Part shown: in pieces, positions 16,530 to 52,015 of the stretch | Numbering within the stretch: the first letter of the stretch is position 1 | Layout of the letters: each line of letters starts with the position of its first letter | From: Delphinus delphis | Lineage: Eukaryota; Chordata; Mammalia; Artiodactyla; Delphinidae | Assembly (NCBI RefSeq): GCF_949987515.2 | Contig: NC_082694.2 | Span: forward strand, 37,778,451 to 37,842,450 | DNA: 64,000 nucleotides | Direction of reading: 5' to 3' | Notes under the pieces: generated by a model | Seen by the model: only the letters and a program-made list of their open reading frames with translations | The model's database searches: none | What the model was told of the DNA's origin: nothing | Made by a program: the position numbers and the translations under genes

Positions 16530-17386
16530 AGAGAGAAGGCACCATTGCCTTCCAAACACTTCACCAGCAGGGAGGATAAGTGAGGGACTCAGGGGCGGAG
16601 CCAGAGGATGGATCCCATTAGCTTAAGGTCAGCCCCTGATCAGGAAAGGCTTAAGACCCCCTGGGACAGCATGACTGTCATCAATCAAAAAGATTCATTA
16701 GTATTGCAGAGCAATGGCCTTTAAAAATCCCTGGAGGAGACAAGCAAGGCCACCCCTGCAGGCTGTCTGACACAAGGCCGGGAGCCTGTGGTAGAGGTGG
16801 GGTGACACTGATGAGGGAAGGAGGGTGTGCCATAGAGAACAAGACGCCCACTGCCACCCTGCCGCCCTTGGGTGCTTACACTGGGAGTGACTCCACAGTT
16901 GGAACACACGTGGGTGAGAGTCGGAGCATGGCCAATACATGCTGCTCAAGCCCAAGTCAATGCGGGGTCACCAGTACCCCAAAGCCCCGACCTTGTCCTT
17001 AGTCCTACGTGAGTGAGAATCTCCCCAAACCAGCGTGTCCACACCATCCCAGTGGCCCTGCCACCCTGCAAAAGAAATATCTTGCTGGCAATGGGAGCGA
17101 TCTGTCATCAGGTCACTCCTGAAGCCAGGCCCTGGCACCAGACCCCAGGCTCCACTTCATAGGCATGAGTCTAAAAGCTCCACTGGGCATTTGGCCAACG
17201 TGGTGGGGGAGATGGGGTGAGGTGATAAAGAGTCAGAGATTGCCCTAAAGAAGAAATGGACCCCTGAGAGAAATAAGTACCTGGGACCATATGGGTCCTG
17301 GTTAAACCGGGGTACTTTGCCCAGACAGTATTGCCAGCTGTAGTGATCCTAGTCACTGGAGGAAGACTTAAAAACTTTTCAGGAGG
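16530..17386. other. GC-richer unannotated sequence
   Basis: Moderately GC-rich compared with its surroundings. Several short open frames on both strands have no recognisable domain. I cannot assign it; it could be a decayed repeat or pseudogene. Confidence 0.35.
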
Positions 17387-17655: not shown

Positions 17656-17669
17656 AGGTGCAGGATGGC
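17656..17669 (+). repeat. left target-site duplication of the ORF1-only L1
   Basis: AGGTGCAGGATGGC is identical to 20089-20102. The two copies bracket the L1 segment exactly. Confidence 0.9.
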
Positions 17670-20088
17670 GGAGCTTCCGGGAAGATGGCGGAAGAGTAAG
17701 ACGCGGAGATCACCTTCCTCCCCACAGATACACCAGAAATACATCCACGCGTGGAACAACTCCTACGGAGCACCTACTGAACGCTGGCAGAAGACCTCAG
17801 ACCTCCCAAAAGGCAAGGAACCCCCCACGTACCTGGTTAGGGCAAAAGAAAAAACTAAACAGAGACAAAAGGATAGGGACGGGTCCTGCACCAGCGGGAG
17901 AGAGCTGTGAAGGAGGAAAAGTGTCCACACACTAGGAAGCCCCTTCGCGGGCGGAGACTTCCGGTGGCGGAGTGGGGGAGCTTGGGAGCCGCCGAGGAGA
18001 GCACGGCAACAGGGTGCGGAGGACAAAGCGGAGAGATTCCAGCGCAGAGGATCGGTCGACCGGCACTCACCAGCCGAGAGGCTTGTCTGCTCGCCCGCCG
18101 GGGCAGGCGGGGCTGGGAGCTGAGGCTCCGGCTTCTGTCGGAGTGCCGGGAGAGGACTGAGGATGGCTGCGTGAACACAGCCTGCAGGGCGTTAGGGCAC
18201 CGCGGCACAGACATGAGACGCTAAGGCCGCTGCTGCCGCCACCAAGAAGCCTGTGTGCGAACACAGGTCACTGTCCACACACCTTTCCGGGGAGCCTGTG
18301 CAGCCCGCCACTGCCAGGGTCCCGGGATCCAGGGACAACTCCCCCGGGAGAACGCACGGCACGCCTCAGGCTAGCAACGTCACGCCAGCCTCTGCCGCCG
18401 CAGGCCCGCCCCACACTCCGTGACCCTCCCTACCGCCCCCCCCCCCCCCCCCCCCCCCCGGCCTGAGTGAGCCAGAGGCTCCTTTAACCCCGTCCTGTCT
18501 GAGCAAAGAACAGACGCCCTCCAGCGACCTACAAGCACAGGCGGGGCCAAATCCAAAGCTGAGCCCCTGGGAGCTGTGAGAACAAAGAAGAGAAAGGGAA
18601 ATCTCTCCCAGCAGCCTCAGAAGCAGCGGATTAAAGCTCCACAATCAACTTGATGTACCTTGCATCTGTGGAATACATGAATAGACAACGAATCATCCCA
18701 AATTAAGGAGCCCTGTGGATGAAAGGCTCTTGGTGCTGCAGCCAGGAGTCAGTGCTGTGCCTCTGAGGTGGGAGAGCCAACTTCAGGACACTGGTCCACA
18801 AGAGGCCTCCCAGCTGCACATAATATCAAACAGCGAAAATCTCCCAGAGATCTCCATCTCAACGCCAGCACCCAGCTTCACTCAACGACCAGCAAGCTAC
18901 AGTGCTGGACATCCTATGCCAAACAACTAGCAAGACAGGAACACAACCCCACCCATTAGCAGAGAGGCTGCCCAAAATCATAATAAGTCTACAGACACCC
19001 CAAAACACACCACCAGACGTGGACCTGCCCACCAGAAAGACAAGATCCAGCCTCATCCACCAGAACACAGGCACTAGTACCCTCCACCAGGAAGCCTACA
19101 CAACCCACTGAACCAACCTTAGCCACTGGGGACAGACACCAAAAACAACAGGAACTACGAACCTTCAGCCTGCAAAAAGGAGACCCCAAACACAGTAGGA
19201 TAAGCAAAATGAAAAGACAGAAAAACACACAGCAGATGAAGGAGCAAGATAAAAACCCACCAGACCTAACAAATGAAGAGGAAATAGGCAGTCTACCTGA
19301 AAAAGAATTCAGAATAATGATAGTAAAGATGATCCAAAATCTTGGAAATAGAATAGACAAAATGCAAGAATCAGTTAACAAGGACCTAGAAGAACTAAAG
19401 ATGAAACAAACAATGATGAACAACACAATAAATGAAATGAAAAATACTCTAGATGGGATCAATAGCAGAATAACTGAGGCAGAAGAACAGATAAGTGACC
19501 TGGAAGATAAAATAGTGGAAATAACTACTGCAGAGCAGAATAAAGAAAAAAGAATGAAAAGAACTGAGGACAGTCTCAGAGACCTCTGGGACAACATTAA
19601 ACGCACCAACATTTGAATTATAGGGGTTCCAGAAGAAGAAGAGAAAAAGAAAGGGACTGAGAAAATATTTGAAGAGATTATAGTTGAAAACTTCCCTAAT
19701 ATGGGAAAGGAAATAGTTAATCAAGTCCATGAAGCACAGAGAGTCCCATACAGGATAAATCCAAGGAGAAACACGCCAAGACACATATTAATCAAACTGT
19801 CAAAAATTAAATACAAAGAAAACATATTAAAAGCAGCAAGGGAAAAACAACAAATAACACACAAGGGAATCCCCATAAGGTTAACAGCTGATCTTTCAGC
19901 AGAAACTCTGCAAGCCAGAAGGGAGTGGCAGGACATATTGAAAGTGTTGAAGGAGAAAAACCTGCAACCAAGATTACTCTACCCAGCAAGGATCTCATTC
20001 AGATTTGATGGAGAAATTAAAACCTTTACAGACAAGCAAAAGCTGAGAGAGTTCAGCACCACCAAACCAGCTCTACAACAACTGCTAA
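17670..20088 (+). mobile_element. L1 insertion consisting only of 5'UTR and ORF1
   Basis: The segment starts with the L1 promoter end (YY1-like AAGATGGCGG at 17683-17692) and a CpG-rich 5'UTR of about 1.5 kb, then ORF1 from 19209. It stops abruptly at the end of ORF1, inside CTGCTAAAG. ORF2, the 3'UTR and the poly(A) tail are absent. The same position in the other L1 of this window (about 43397) continues 'ctaaaggaacttctctaa'. Perfect 14-bp direct repeats flank the segment, so the sequence after 20088 is pre-insertion DNA. A 24-nt C run interrupts the 5'UTR, and the junction at 18710/18711 looks like a removed intron. Cannot be autonomous. Confidence 0.85.
18436..18459 (+). repeat. 24-nt poly(C) run in the L1 5'UTR
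   Basis: Uninterrupted C24 (G24 on the other strand) inside the GC-rich L1 5'UTR. It can form G-quadruplex or i-motif structures and is a likely assembly or length-variable site. Confidence 0.95.
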
Positions 20089-20132
20089 AGGTGCAGGATG
20101 GCACTGCACATCTCAGTCCTCTCAAGCACTAG
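19209..20132 (+). pseudogene. L1 ORF1 with one nonsense codon and a host-derived C-terminus
   Basis: L1 ORF1p is the RNA-binding chaperone of the L1 ribonucleoprotein (coiled coil, RRM, C-terminal domain). The frame runs 307 codons from ATG 19209 without an indel. A long charged coiled coil spans about residues 40-125 (ITEAEEQISDLEDKIVE). The RRM/CTD region follows (LTADLSAETLQARREWQDIL, LYPARISFRF). One in-frame TGA at 19614-19616 sits where the context 'caacatt-tga-attata' suggests an ancestral CGA, a CpG transition. The native end is missing: after LLK the frame reads 13 codons of flanking DNA (VQDGTAHLSPLKH) to TAG at 20130. Confidence 0.85.
20089..20102 (+). repeat. right target-site duplication of the ORF1-only L1
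   Basis: AGGTGCAGGATGGC, identical to 17656-17669. It follows the L1 directly, with no A tail between. Confidence 0.9.
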
Positions 20133-20540
20133 AGAGGGACCTACAAAATTCCAAGGAAGGTATTCCAAAGCTGGGGCCCAGGGCAGAGACCCAGAATGTC
20201 TAGCCTAAGGGAGGCACAGCATGTACCTGCTTTATGAAAAGAAACTCTTATATTTTTTAAAGTTCCGTGTGAGCCCCTCTCTGATACCACCTCTCTCCCT
20301 CCATACTCAGAGATAAACAATATCCTAAAATTTTCCTTTTTTTTCTTTACGGTTTTACCACATATATTTGTATTATTTAAAAAAAAAAGATAGTTTGGTT
20401 TTTCATTATTTGAACCTCACATAAATAGAACAAACTTGTATATATTCTTGCTTCTTCCTTGAATCCATGGATTAGGAGAAAATAAAAAAGGCCCGTGTAC
20501 CGCAAAAAAAAAAAAAGTTTACTTAGCTTTGATTAGTTGT
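20103..20540. other. pre-insertion flank, ending with a SINE tail fragment
   Basis: Continues the sequence that precedes 17656. At 20490-20516 'ggcccgtgtaccgc' followed by an A run equals the last bases of a CHR-2 SINE without any body. Otherwise nothing is recognised. Confidence 0.5.
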
Positions 20541-41556: not shown

Positions 41557-42510
41557 AAAATAAAACAAGAAAGGGGGGGTAAGATGTATCAATATTTAGT
41601 GGAGGGGAGGAACCAAGATGGAGGAGTAGAAGGACATGCTCTCACTCCCTCTTGTGAGAACACCAGAATCACAACTAGCTGCTGGACAGTCATCGACAGG
41701 AAGACACTGGAACTCACCAGAAAAGATACCCCATATCCAAAGACAAAGGAGAAGCCACAATGAGACGGTAGGAGGGGTGCAATCACAGTAATATCAAATC
41801 CCGTAACTGCTGGGTGGGTGACTCACAGACTGGAGAACACTTATACCACAGAAGTTCACCCACTGGAGTAAAGGTTCTGAGCCCCACGTCAGGCTTCCCA
41901 ACCTGGGAGTCCAGCAACGGCAGGAGGAATTCCTAGAAAATCAGACTTTGAGGCCTAGTGGGATTTGATTGCAGGACTTCGACAAGACTGGGGGAAACAG
42001 AGACTCCACTCTTCGACAGCGCACACAAAGTAGTGGGCGCATTGGGACCCAGGGGAAGGAGCACTGACCCCAGGGGAGACTGAACCAGACCTACCTGCTA
42101 GTGTTGGAGGGTCCCTTGCAGAGGCGGGGGGTGGCTGTGGCTCAATGTGGGGACAAGGACACTGGCAGCAGAAGTTCTAGGAAGTACTCCTTGGTGTGAG
42201 CCCTCCCAGAGTCTGTCATTAGCCTCACCAAAGAGCCCAGGTAGGCGCCAGTGTTGGGTTGCCTCAGGCCAAACAACCAACAGGGAGGGAACACAGCCCC
42301 ACCCATCAGCGGTCAAGCGGATTAAAGTTTTACTGAGCTCTGCCCAGCAGAGCAATAGTCAGCTCTATCCACCACCAGTCCCTCCCATCAGGAAACTTAC
42401 ACAAGCCTCTTAGACGGCCTCATCCACCAGAGGGCAGACAGCAGAAGCAAGAATAACTACAATCCTGCAGCCTATGGATCAAAAACCACATTCACAGAAA
42501 GATAGACAAG

Positions 42511-43416
42511 ATGAAAAGGCAGAGGGCTATGTACCAGATGAAGGAACAAGATAAAACCCCAGAAAAACAACTAAATGAAGTGGAGATATGCAACTTTCCA
42601 GAAAAAGAATTCAGAATAATGATAGTGAAGATGAACCAGGACCTCGGAAAAGAATGGAGGCAAAGATCGAGAAGATGTAAGAAATGTTTAAAAAAGATCT
42701 AGAAGAATTAAAGAACAAACAATCAGAGATGAAAAACACAGTAACTGAAATGAAAACTACACTAGAGGGAATCAATAGCAGAATAACTGAGGCAGAAGAA
42801 CAGATAAGTGACCTGGAAGACAGAATGGTGGAATTCACTGCTGCGGAACAGAATAAAGAAAAAAGAATGAAAATAAATGAAGACAGCCTAAGAGACCTCT
42901 GGGACAAACATTAAATGCAACAACATTTGCATTATAGGGGTCCCAGAAGGAGAAGAGAGAGAGAAAGGGCCCGAGAAAATATTTGCAGAGATTATAGTCA
43001 AAAACTTCCCTAACATGGGAAAGGAAATAGCCACCCAAGCCCAGGAAGGGCAGAGAGTCCCGTACAGGATAAACCCAAGGAGAAACATGCCGAGACACAC
43101 AGTAATCAAATTGGAAAAAATTATAGACAAAGAAAAATTACTGAAAGCAGCAAGGGAAAAATGACAAATAACATACAAGGGAATTCCCATAATGTTAACA
43201 GCTGATTTCTCAGCAGAAATTCTACAAGCCAGAAGAGAGTGGCATGATATACTTAAAGTGATGAAAGGGAAGAACGTACAACCAAGATTACTGTACCCGG
43301 CAAGGATCTCATTCAGCTTTGATGGAGAAATGAAAAGCTTTACAGAGAAGCAAAAGCTAAGAGAATTCAGCCCCACCAAACCAACTCTACAACAAATGCT
43401 AAAGGAACTTCTCTAA
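42511..43416 (+). pseudogene. L1 ORF1, broken
   Basis: Encodes the L1 RNA-binding protein in pieces. Frame 1 runs from ATG 42511 to a stop at 42702. The coiled coil then continues in another frame (42684-42914, ITEAEEQISDLEDRMVE). The C-terminal domain returns to the first frame, with an internal TGA at about 43162-43164, and reads from 43192 to TAA 43414-43416 (LTADFSAEILQARREWHDI, LYPARISFSF). The breaks are two compensating single-base-type indels (near 42660-42690 and in 'gggacaaacattaa' near 42905) plus the nonsense codon. Confidence 0.85.
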
Positions 43417-43474
43417 CTGGGAAACACAAGAGAAGAAAAGGACCTACAAAAACAAACCCAAAACAGTTAAGAAA

Positions 43475-46400
43475 ATGGTCATAGGAACATACATATCGAT
43501 AATTACCTTAAACGTGAATGGATTAAATGCTCCAACCAAAAGACACAGGCTTGCTAAATGGATACAAAAACAAGACCCATATATATGCTGTCTACAAGAG
43601 ACACACTTCAGACCTAGGGACACATACAGACTGAAAGTGAGGGGATGGAAAAAGATATTCCATGCAAATGGAAATGAAAAGAAAGCTGGAGTGGCAATAC
43701 TCATATCTGATAAAATAGACTTTAAAATAAAGAATGTTACAAGAGACAAGGAAGGACACTACATAATGATCAAGGGATCAATCCAAGAAGAATATATAAC
43801 AATTATAAATATATATGCACCCAACATAGGAGCACCTCAATACATAAGGCAACTGCTATCAGCTATAAAAGAGAAAATTGACAGTAACACAATAATAGTG
43901 GGGGACTTTAACACCTCACTTACACCAATGGACAGATCATCCAAATTGAAAATAAATAAGGAAACAGAAGCTTTAAATGATACAATAGACCAGATAGGTT
44001 TAATTGATATTTATAGGACATTCCATCCAAAAACAGCAGATTACACTTTCTTCTCAAGTGCACACGGAACATTCTCCAGGATAGATCACATCATGGGTCA
44101 CAAATCAAGCCTCCATAAATTTAAGAAAATTGAAATCATATCAAGCAACTTTTCTGACCACAATGCTATGAGAGTAGAAATGAATTACAGGGAAAAAAAT
44201 GTAAAAAACACAAACACATGGAGGCCAAACAATACATTACTAAATAACCAAGAGATCACTGAAGAAATCAAAGAGGAAATCAAAAAATACCTAGAGACAA
44301 ATAACAATGAAAACACGACGATCCAAAACCTATGGGCTTCAGCAAAGGCAGTTCCAAGAGGGAAGTTTATAGCTATACAAGCCTACTTCAAGAAACAAGA
44401 AATATCTCAAATAAACAATCTAACCTTACACCTAAAGGAACTAGAGAAAGAAGAACAAACAAAACCCAAAATTAGCAGAAGGAAAGAAATCATAAAGATC
44501 AGAGCAGAAATAAATGAAATAGAAACAAAGAAAATAGCAAAGATCAGTAAAACTAAAAGCTGGTTCTTTGAGAAGATAAACAAAATTGATAAACCATTAG
44601 CCAGACTCATCAAGAAAAAGAGGGAGAGGACTCAAATCAATAAAATTAGAAATGAAAAAGGAGAAGTTACAACAGACACTGCAGAAATACAAAGCATCCT
44701 AAGAGACTCCTACAAGTAACTCCATGCCAACAAAATGGACAATCTGGAAGAAATGGACAAATTCTTAGAAAGGTATAACCTTCCAAGACTGAACCAGGAA
44801 GAAATAGAAAATATGAACAGACCAATCACAAGTAATGAAATTGAAACTGTGATTAAAAATCTTCCAACAAACAAAAGTCCAGGACCAGATGGCTTCACAG
44901 GTGAATTCTATCAAACATTTAGAGATGAGCTAACACCTATACTTCTCAAATTCTTCCAAAAAATTGCAGAGGAACGAACACTCCCAAACTCATTCTATGA
45001 GGCCACCATCACCCTGATACCAAAACCAGACAAAGATACTACAAAAAAAGAAAATTACAGACCAATATCACTGATGAATATAGATGCAAAAATCCTCAAC
45101 AAAATACTAGCAAACAGAATCCAACAACACATTAAAAGGATCATACACCATGATCAAGTGGGATTTATCCCAGGGATGCAAGGATTCTTCAATATACACA
45201 AATCAAGCAATGTGATACACCATATTAACAAACTGAAGAATAAAAAACATATGATCATCTCAAGAGATGCAGAAAAAGCTTTTGACAAAATTCAACACCC
45301 ATTTATGATAAAAACTCTCCAGAAAGTGGGCATAGAGGGAATCTACCTCAATATAATAAAGGCCACATATGACAAACCCACAGCAAACATCATTCTCAAT
45401 GGTGAAAAACTGAAAGCATTTCCTCTAAGATTAGGAACAAGAAAAGGATGTCCACTCTCACCACTATTATTCAACATAGTTTTGGAAGTCCTAGCCACAG
45501 CAGTCAGAGAAGAAAAAGAAATAAAAGGAATACAAATTGGAAAAGAAGAAGTAAAACTGTCAGTGTTTGCAGATGACAGGATACTATACATAGAGAATCC
45601 TAAAAATGCCACCAGAAAACTACTAGAGCAACTCAATGAATTTGGTAAAGTTGTAGGATACAAGATTAATGCACAGAAATCTCTTGCATTCCTATACACT
45701 AATGATAAAAAATCTAAAAGAGAAATTAAGGACACACTCCCATTTACCACTGCAACAAAAAGAATAAAATACCTAGGAATAAACCTACCAAGGGAGACAA
45801 AAGACCTGTATGCAGAAAACTATAAGACACTGATGAAAAAAATTAAAGATGATACCAACAGATGAAGAGATATACCATGTTCTTGGATTAGAAGAATCAA
45901 TATTGTGAAAATGACTATACTACCCAAAGCAATCTACAGATTCAATGCAACCCTATCAAATTACCAATGGCATTTTTTACGGAACTAGAACAAAAAAATC
46001 TCAAAATTTGTATATAGACACAAAGACCCTGAATAGCCAAAGCAGTCTTGAGGGAAAAAAATGGAGCTGGAGGAATCAGACTCCTTGACTTCAGACTATA
46101 CTACAAAGCTACAGTAATCAAGACAATATGGTACTGGAACAAAAACAGAAACATAGATCAATGGAACAAGATAGAAAGCCCAGAGATAAACCCATGCACC
46201 TATGGTCAACTAATCTATGACAAAGGAGGCAAGGATATATAATGGAGAAAAGACAGTCTCTTCAATAAGTGGTGCTGGGAAAACTGGACAGCTACATGTA
46301 AAAGAATGAAATTAGAACACTCCCTAACACCATACACAAAAATAAACTCAAAATGGATTCGAGACCTAAATGTAAGACCGGACACTATAAAACTCTTAGA

Positions 46401-47285
46401 GGAAAACATAGGAAGAACACTCTTTGACATAAATCACAGCAAGACCTTTTTTGATCCACCTCCTAGAGTAATGGAAATAAAAGCAAAAATAAACAAATGG
46501 GACCTAATGAAACTTCAAAACTTTTGCAAAGCAAAGGAAACCATAAAGAAGATGAAAAGTCAACCCTCAGAATGGAGAAAATATTTGTAGACGCATCAAT
46601 GGACAAAGGATTAATCTCCGAAATATATAAACAGCTCATGCAGCTCAATATTAAAGAAACAAACAACACAATCTAAAACTTGGCAGAAGACCTAAATAGA
46701 CATTTCTCCAAAGAAGACATACAGATGGCCAAGAAGCTCATGAAAAGCTGCTCAACATCACTAATTATTAGAGAAATGCAAATCAAAACTACAATGAGAT
46801 ATCACCTCACACCAGTTAGAATGGGCTTCATCAGAAAATCTACAAACAAATGCTGGAGAGGGTGTGGAGAAAAGGGAACCCTCTCGCACTGTTGGTGGGA
46901 ATGTAAACTGATACAGCCACAATGGGGAACAGTATGCAAGTTCCTTAATAAACTAAAAATAGAATTACCATATGATCCAGCAATCCCACTACTGGGCATA
47001 TACCCAGAGAAAACCATAATTCAAAAAGACACATGCACCCCAATGTTCATTGCAGCACTATTTACAATAGCCAGGTCATGGAAGCAACCTAAATGCCCAT
47101 TGACAGACAAATGGATAAAGAAGATGTGGTACATATATACAATGGAATATTACTCAGCCATAAAAAAGAATGAAATTGAGTCATTTGTTGAGACATGGAT
47201 GGATCTAGAGACTGTCATACAGAGTGAAGTAAGTCAGAAAGAGAAAAACAAATATCATATATTAATGCATGTATGTGGAACCTAG
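43475..47285 (+). pseudogene. L1 ORF2 (endonuclease/reverse transcriptase), broken
   Basis: ORF2p nicks target DNA and reverse-transcribes L1 RNA. The APE-like endonuclease is in the first 240 codons ([29 protein letters not shown]). The RT domain follows, with [32 protein letters not shown] and the catalytic FADD at 45566-45577. FADDR carries R where most L1s have M or T. The C-terminal Cys/His segment is [16 protein letters not shown]. Breaks: in-frame TAA at 44717 and TGA at 45863, a frame change before 46048, TAA at 46240, and another frame change before 46680. It starts 58 nt after the ORF1 stop, as usual for L1. Confidence 0.9.
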
Positions 47286-47449
47286 AAAAATGGTACAGAT
47301 GAACCGGTTTGCAGGGCAGAAGTTGAGACACAGATGGAGAGAACAAATGTATGGACACCAAGGGGGGAAAGCTACGGGGGGGTGGGGATGCCTAAAAAGA
47401 ACCTGTTGTATAAAAAAAAATTAAATTTAAAAATTAAAAAAAAACTAAT

Positions 47450-50165: not shown

Positions 50166-50273
50166 TTTGTTTGTTTGTTTGGCTATGTGGGATCTTATTT
50201 CCCTGATCAGGAATTGAACCCAGGCCCTCCTCAGTAATAGCGCAGAGTCCTAACCACCGGACCACCAGGGAAT
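50166..50273 (-). repeat. short tRNA-derived SINE with 10-bp duplication
   Basis: Minus-strand short-form SINE ('ggctatgtgggatcttatttccc', 'caggaattgaacccagg', 'ggaccaccagggaa'). TCTCACAGTT is at 50156-50165 and 50274-50283. Confidence 0.9.
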
Positions 50274-50638: not shown

Positions 50639-52015
50639 GCCCAAACTGCCCTCAGCCGGCCGGTCGGCCGGCTCTGTTATGGCGATCTGCAGCCCCAGCA
50701 TCGTGATTAGCAATAATTAACCAGCTTATGACCTAGATTTATTTTGTATACCTAATCATTATGCTGAGGATTTGGAAAAGGTGTTTATTCCTCATGGACT
50801 AATTATGGACAGGACCGAACGTCTTGCTCAAGATGTGAAGAAGGAGATGGGAGGCCATCACACCGTGGCCCTCTGTGTGCTCAACGGGGACTACAAATTC
50901 TTTGCTCACCTGCTGGATTACATCAAAGTACTGAAGAGAAATAGTGATAGATCCATTCCTATGACTGTAGATTTTATCAGACTGAAGAGCTACTGTAATG
51001 ACCAGTCAACAGGCGACATAAAAGTAATTGGTGAAGATGATCTCTCAACTTTCACTGGAAAGAATGTGTTGATTGTGGAAGGTATAATTGACACTGGCAA
51101 AACAATGAAAACCTTGCTTTCCTTGGTCAAGCAGCATAATCCAAAGATGATCAAGGTTGCAAGCTTGCTGGTGCAAAGGACCCCTTGAAGTGCTGGATAC
51201 AGACCAGACTTTGTTGGATTTGAAATTCTAGCCAAGTTTGTTGTAGGATATGCCCTTGACTATAATGAATACTTCGGGGATGTGAATCATGTTTGTGTCA
51301 TTAGTGAAGCTGCAAAAGCAAAATACAAAGCCTAAGATGATAGTTCAAGTTGAGTTTGGAAACATCTGGAGTCCCACTGAAATCACCAGTAAAATTATCA
51401 AATGTTCTAGTTCTGTGGCCAGATGCTTAGTTGAGATTATTGCATGTAACTTCTTAGAATTTTATCTGTTGTATTTTAGAAATGCCAGTTGCTGCATTCC
51501 CAAACTCTTTATTTGCACTGTCAGCCTATAGACTATCATTTCCCTTTGGGTGGATTGCTGTTTTACTCGTGAATGAAAAACCTCTTAAACCACATCACTA
51601 TGGAACGAAAATATTGACATTGTATATGTAAAGAACATTTGAAGAAAAGAATATATTAGTTTTTTAACTGGTATTTTACTTTTTACATATTCAGGGAAGA
51701 ACAGAAGTGATTGAGTATTGTTAATTATACCACTGTGTGTTCAGAAAAGTAAGAAACAGTCAGTTTCATATCAGTCACAGCACTTAGAAGTATCGTTATG
51801 TCGGATAAACCACACGTCCTGGAATTATTTTAGTAGCTTTTAGTAGTATTAACTGTAATTTCCCACTTGTTCAAATTATTTTTGGTGAATCTTTGTCAAC
51901 AGATTGATCTGTACCTTTTAAATACAGATCAATAAGTTCCAAAAACCTACCACTTTTTGAATTCTTCAACATAAAAATCCTTAAAATAAAGGCTGTCTCT
52001 TTAAAAGAGAGAAAA
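50639..52015 (+). pseudogene. HPRT1P: HPRT1 processed pseudogene (retrocopy)
   Basis: Intronless copy of hypoxanthine-guanine phosphoribosyltransferase, the purine-salvage enzyme that joins hypoxanthine or guanine to PRPP. The reading frame spans 50679-51335 (219 codons including TAA), the exact length of functional HPRT, with no indel. Two nonsense codons break it: codon 14 (TAA 50718-50720) and codon 170 (TGA 51186-51188, from CGA). Key residues are also altered: the PRPP-binding motif reads [11 protein letters not shown] (Asp to Gly after VE), and the loop usually LKGGYKFF reads LNGDYKFF. 5'UTR and 3'UTR are present, with AATAAA near 51986. The 14-bp AAGTAAACAGTTTA flanks the copy at 50625-50638 and 52016-52029, so it was made by L1 machinery. 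'P' in the symbol denotes pseudogene. Confidence 0.97.

Follow-up and report, generated by a model that had tools for sequence, protein, structure and literature searches.

The window analysed here, a stretch of mammalian DNA of 64 kb, contains an L1 segment bordered on either side by the same 14-bp sequence (Table 1). The front end of this L1 is apparently complete, and more than half of the L1 length is missing together with the tail. The earlier note had described the insert as a 5′UTR with ORF1. As to its L1 identity, this is borne out by BLASTN, which gave one match to the insert within the window, namely the window's other L1 (42373-43405; 81.3% identity over 1,036 columns, the alignment taking in the first three bases of the right duplication and ending at 20091). 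It is borne out as well by Pfam, whose matches are the L1 trimerization domain for the piece of ORF1 upstream of an in-frame stop, and the RBD-like and dsRBD-like domains for the piece downstream of it. ORF1, however, is not whole. After LQQLLK its reading frame passes into the flank, so that the stop and the three codons before it are absent, as are the whole of ORF2, the 3′UTR and any tail. Scans of viral contigs and of prokaryote genome contigs returned no L1 relatives of the insert, as expected since the DNA is mammalian.

Table 1. Positions of the insert, its borders and the features discussed in the text (numbered from the first letter of the window)
Feature	Position	Strand	Remark
Left copy of the 14-bp target-site duplication, AGGTGCAGGATGGC	17656..17669	+	Exact repeat
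3′-truncated, tailless L1 insert	17670..20088	+	2,419 nt minimum; L1 letters possible to 20091
AAGATGGCGG, YY1-site-like motif	17682..17691	+	Insert position 13; compared with the human L1 YY1 site
Uninterrupted run of 24 C inside the L1 5′UTR	18436..18459	+	
ORF1 piece	19209..20088	+	In-frame TGA at 19614-19616; no frameshift; last three codons and stop absent
Right copy of the 14-bp target-site duplication, AGGTGCAGGATGGC	20089..20102	+	Exact repeat
AGG, 3-bp overlap of L1 and target at the 3′ junction	20089..20091	+	
Matching place in the other L1	43399..43416	+	ORF1 continues through GAACTTCTCTAA (E L L stop)

At its 5′ end the insert opens with GGAGCTTCCGGG, followed by AAGATGGCGG, which is thus preceded by 12 nt. 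The YY1 site of human L1, CAAGATGGCCG, occupies nt 12-22, and its presence has been used to call an L1 full length (PMC2912911); AAGATGG starts at position 13 in human L1 too. The window's other L1 carries AAGATGGAGG at 41615, preceded by GGAGGAACC, which is similar to the start of the insert. The agreement in spacing between AAGATGGCGG and the human YY1 site suggests that the L1 5′ end is complete and that the left duplication stops at the expected L1 +1, human L1 rather than the consensus of this subfamily being the yardstick of this spacing argument. One end of the insert thus resembles the end of an RNA, which is counted in favor of internal priming. The sequence GATGGCGGA is found at 17664-17672 and again at 17684-17692, 20 nt apart and spanning the left junction. 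These are its only two copies in the window, the first made up of target GATGGC plus L1 GGA, the second lying inside L1. The left duplication thus ends in six bases that resemble L1's own 5′ motif; chance, or an overlap used in 5′ joining, may account for this. As for the run of 24 C, it may be a real expansion or a feature of sequencing or assembly. CpG has an observed/expected ratio of 0.63 over 17670-18700, higher than in the flanks, where it is 0.28 on one side and 0.14 on the other; this value for the 5′UTR, the identity of the duplications and the single stop in ORF1 are compatible with a fairly young insertion, to which they assign no date.

The earlier note had placed the 14-mer AGGTGCAGGATGGC exactly at the borders of the L1, and a sequence scan confirmed both positions. 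With both strands searched, AGGTGCAGGATGGC occurs twice in the 64 kb, the copies being identical at 14 of 14 positions. We compared 10,000 random pairs of borders with the same 2,419-nt spacing, allowing 15 nt of slack and leaving out the real locus with 60 nt on either side. None had 13 nt or more in common; four had 12 nt, and each of these lay within an A-rich part of the window's other L1. A chance repeat as the source of the AGGTGCAGGATGGC pair is ruled out by this control. A previous control that included the real locus had yielded 14 nt in 5 of 4,000 pairs. Non-simple 14-mers repeated 1-6 kb apart form 60 pairs in the window, 51 of them within 55.4-62.2 kb and 6 within 4.4-7.2 kb, clusters that look like shared repeats; the remaining pairs are 17571/20497 (a SINE tail), 2835/6772 and the AGGTGCAGGATGGC pair. 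The target-site duplications of full-length L1 have a published peak at 14-16 bp (PMC2912911), and the perfect 14-bp duplication is counted in favor of an internally primed, L1-mediated insertion.

At the 3′ junction, the L1 side reads CTAAAGGAAC and the target side CTCAGGTGC, and the two are joined as CTAAAGGTGC, with AGG common to both. As previously stated, the other L1 continues with GGAACTTCTCTAA from this point; compared with it, the insert falls short of the ORF1 stop codon by 11 bases, or by 8 if AGG is counted as L1. The reported lack of poly(A) likewise holds, there being no A-run beyond L1's own AA between CTGCTAA and the right duplication. A microhomology of five bases, AAAGG, had been proposed for this junction: its AGG is present, while its first two As presuppose a poly(A) that has since vanished. 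Three or more shared bases are expected at 5.1% of random junctions by formula, and were found in 6.5% of 200,000 random pairings of the locus flanks with the other L1. The 3-bp overlap is therefore marginally beyond chance and amounts to weak complementarity between target and RNA; complementarity of 2-18 nt has been reported for tailless tRNA copies. When the RNA of the related L1 was folded, CTAAAGG had a mean unpaired probability of 0.75, a value equalled or exceeded by 25% of 7-nt windows. In the folded fragment of the element itself, which comes without the downstream part, the break site is mostly paired.

The target was correctly described as not being a typical endonuclease site: on the top strand TC/AGGT agrees with TT/AAAA at 2 of 6 positions, and 60% of all positions in the window match TTAAAA as well as it does. 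SINEs of the window, which we take to belong to the CHR family, served as controls. Searching for their start motif with at most 2 substitutions gave 12 matches, of which 9 have a poly(A) and 5 a clean duplication (at least 10 nt, at most 1 mismatch, at most 5 nt from the start). All five sites are A-rich (TT/AAAAGA, TA/AGAGAA, GA/AAAAAA, TT/AAAAAT and TT/AAGTTA) and, scored by hand, they reach 3-6 of 6 against TTAAAA, compared with 2 for the L1 target. The search for right copies began 8 nt inside the SINE tail, and leading As may belong to the tail; the sites were read from the left copies. By the same script, no clear duplication was found at the other four tailed SINEs, and none longer than 5 nt at the other L1. 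Nor does the target match TT/WAAAAWW, the consensus that Noll et al. (PMC5322556) give for their tailless copies, as a tendency and not a requirement. Downstream of the insert, at 20489-20516, lies AGGCCCGTGTACCGC followed by poly(A), a 28-nt stretch that shares 96% identity with the tail of another SINE, the one at 17386; it is a lone SINE tail and perhaps represents an extreme case of 5′ truncation.

Other features of the window can be noted. The second L1, at 41603-47440, is near full-length and contains pieces of ORF2 with endonuclease and reverse transcriptase domains in several frames. At 50772-51188, an uninterrupted frame of 138 amino acids resembles hypoxanthine-guanine phosphoribosyltransferase (PDB 1bzy residues 31-168, E 2.6e-76); it looks like a processed HPRT1 pseudogene and, as such, is likely to be a product of the L1 machinery. 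On the minus strand, 50199-50271 has an Rfam tRNA match (32.2 bits, the gathering score being 29) and could be a tRNA pseudogene or the head of a SINE.

Our preferred reading, to which we assign a probability of about 0.6, is that the insert arose when reverse transcription by the L1 machinery was primed internally, perhaps at a staggered break that was already there. The priming event, the source of the nick and the order of the steps, as we infer them, would be the following. The template would have been an L1 RNA whose 5′ end was intact, reverse transcribed by the L1 machinery, the primer being the 3′ end of the lower strand of the target, ...GCACCT-3′. Instead of pairing with the poly(A) tail, this end would have annealed at the AGG located three codons short of the ORF1 end. 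Extension of the cDNA to the 5′ end of the RNA and joining to the other target strand would have followed, and the filling in of a 14-nt stagger would have generated the duplications. Because the target is not endonuclease-like, we propose that the stagger may stem from a pre-existing break and not from a cut by ORF2p. A primer ending in CCT-3′ can form three pairs at the internal site and one, through its T, on poly(A). We favor internal priming for this reason, and also because the site is unlike the A-rich sites of the SINEs and because a precedent exists: one Alu, full length but tailless, with duplications and without an endonuclease site, has been explained in this way (PMC5402677). Against this reading stand a target at odds with TT/WAAAAWW, an overlap that barely exceeds chance and the lack of clear support from RNA folding for a break in a single-stranded region. 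One could envision, more specifically, that ORF2p primed on the end of ORF1 from a break with 14-nt 3′ overhangs, without any endonuclease cut, and so closed the break with an L1 patch of 2.4 kb. The duplications would then mimic an ordinary insertion, and a seemingly complete promoter region would face the downstream flank. This fuller scenario is a tentative one, and we hold it to be rather doubtful.

The earlier note had set internal priming beside a deletion without ranking the two. In the latter scenario, a full-length insertion with poly(A) subsequently lost everything from ORF2 to the tail through microhomology of AAAGG at the ORF1 end with the A(n)GG border of tail and duplication. Exactly the same sequence is predicted, and the window alone cannot separate the two accounts; suitable partners are not rare (there are 20 instances of AAAGG in the other L1, and 8 in the insert with the junction counted), and for monomeric Alus Noll et al. 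(PMC5322556) point out that internal priming is not easily distinguished from recombination between A-stretches. However, a deletion calls for two events, the second of which would have had to take the entire tail precisely up to the duplication. The first would have had no more than a single T available for priming on poly(A) at TC/AGGT, and the first two As of AAAGG are, on the tail side, assumed. On balance we now favor internal priming and consider the deletion unlikely. A spliced L1 (SpIRE; PMC5860796) was rejected by reasoning, as the spliced mRNA would go on into more distal parts of L1, none of which is found here.

The atypical target and the short overlap would also suit an event in which a break with 14-nt 3′ overhangs captured a piece of L1 DNA, or the cDNA of a cleaved tailless RNA, as filler, with no priming on L1 RNA involved, the more so as a staggered break can yield duplications (PMC5402677). 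Such an origin strikes us as improbable: if the filler was DNA, its start at the expected L1 5′ end would be a coincidence, and truncated source RNAs for tailless 5S and U2 copies, when sought, gave none that was convincing in the account of Noll et al. (PMC5322556). It is also worth considering that a full L1 is present at the locus and was collapsed in the assembly or between haplotypes, since the basis here is the assembled window only. Yet a join overlap of 3-5 bp is judged too short for merging by an assembler, the join falls exactly at the duplication border and the window contains no N, all of which makes an artefact very improbable.

Internal priming, the reading we retain, relates the insert to known cases. 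The structure had been called unusual, which it is; it is not unprecedented, however, and belongs to a described class (PMC5322556, PMC5402677, PMC4859970). A screen of human L1 by Noll et al. (2015, PMC5322556) counted 708 full-length, 90 3′-truncated and 5,593 doubly truncated copies, with duplications in every case, under relaxed conditions and as “data not shown”. The insert, judged by eye, fits the description they give of tailless retropseudogenes: a 5′ end intact to within 5 nt, a loss of 10 nt or more from the 3′ end, a duplication of 8-35 nt and a small gap to it or none. Internally primed L1 insertions were the subject of Srikanta et al. 2009 (Gene), cited in PMC5402677 and PMC4859970; as rendered by these papers, they are 3′-truncated and tailless like the insert, although the title names hominins and the insert is in another mammal, putatively a cetacean to judge by the type of its SINEs. 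The endonuclease is described as dispensable for some of these insertions, and staggered breaks as a possible source of their duplications (PMC5402677). Internal priming usually brings together an A-rich stretch and a T-rich end (PMC4859970), whereas the insert would have used AGG. The same source classes internal priming among the 3′ truncations and assigns to it a disease-causing L1 (EYA1), which has no duplication. Twin priming and priming within Alu tails, as treated in PMC2837659 and PMC3415434, have little bearing on the insert. A limited literature collection contained no paper on LINE internal priming in cetaceans.

Endonuclease-independent L1 insertions are typically without duplications and reportedly show 3′ truncation, a trait shared with the insert. 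Another likeness is the atypical target of these non-classical L1s (Sen et al. 2007, via citing papers). Their usual lack of a duplication sets them apart from the insert, which has perfect ones; endonuclease-independent Alu insertions, too, typically lack them (PMC5402677). In non-classical L1s a peak of 3-bp 3′ overlaps, the length seen at the insert, has been described from 11 junctions only, the author ascribing it to the size of the set. HAL1 (half-L1) elements have ORF1 without ORF2 and carry duplications, as does the insert; they are described as poly(A)-bearing and nearly 2,100 in number in human, and membership is ruled out because the insert is tailless.

The insert is most likely a rare but already described kind of L1 accident. 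It provides a clean example, from a non-primate mammal if the attribution in the earlier note holds, of an L1 that seemingly started to be copied inside its own RNA. From a collection of such copies one could gauge how strictly ORF2p depends on a poly(A) end and on cutting by the endonuclease. Furthermore, as the 5′UTR is apparently kept whole and the L1 3′ end is absent, any transcript initiated in this copy would enter the flank.
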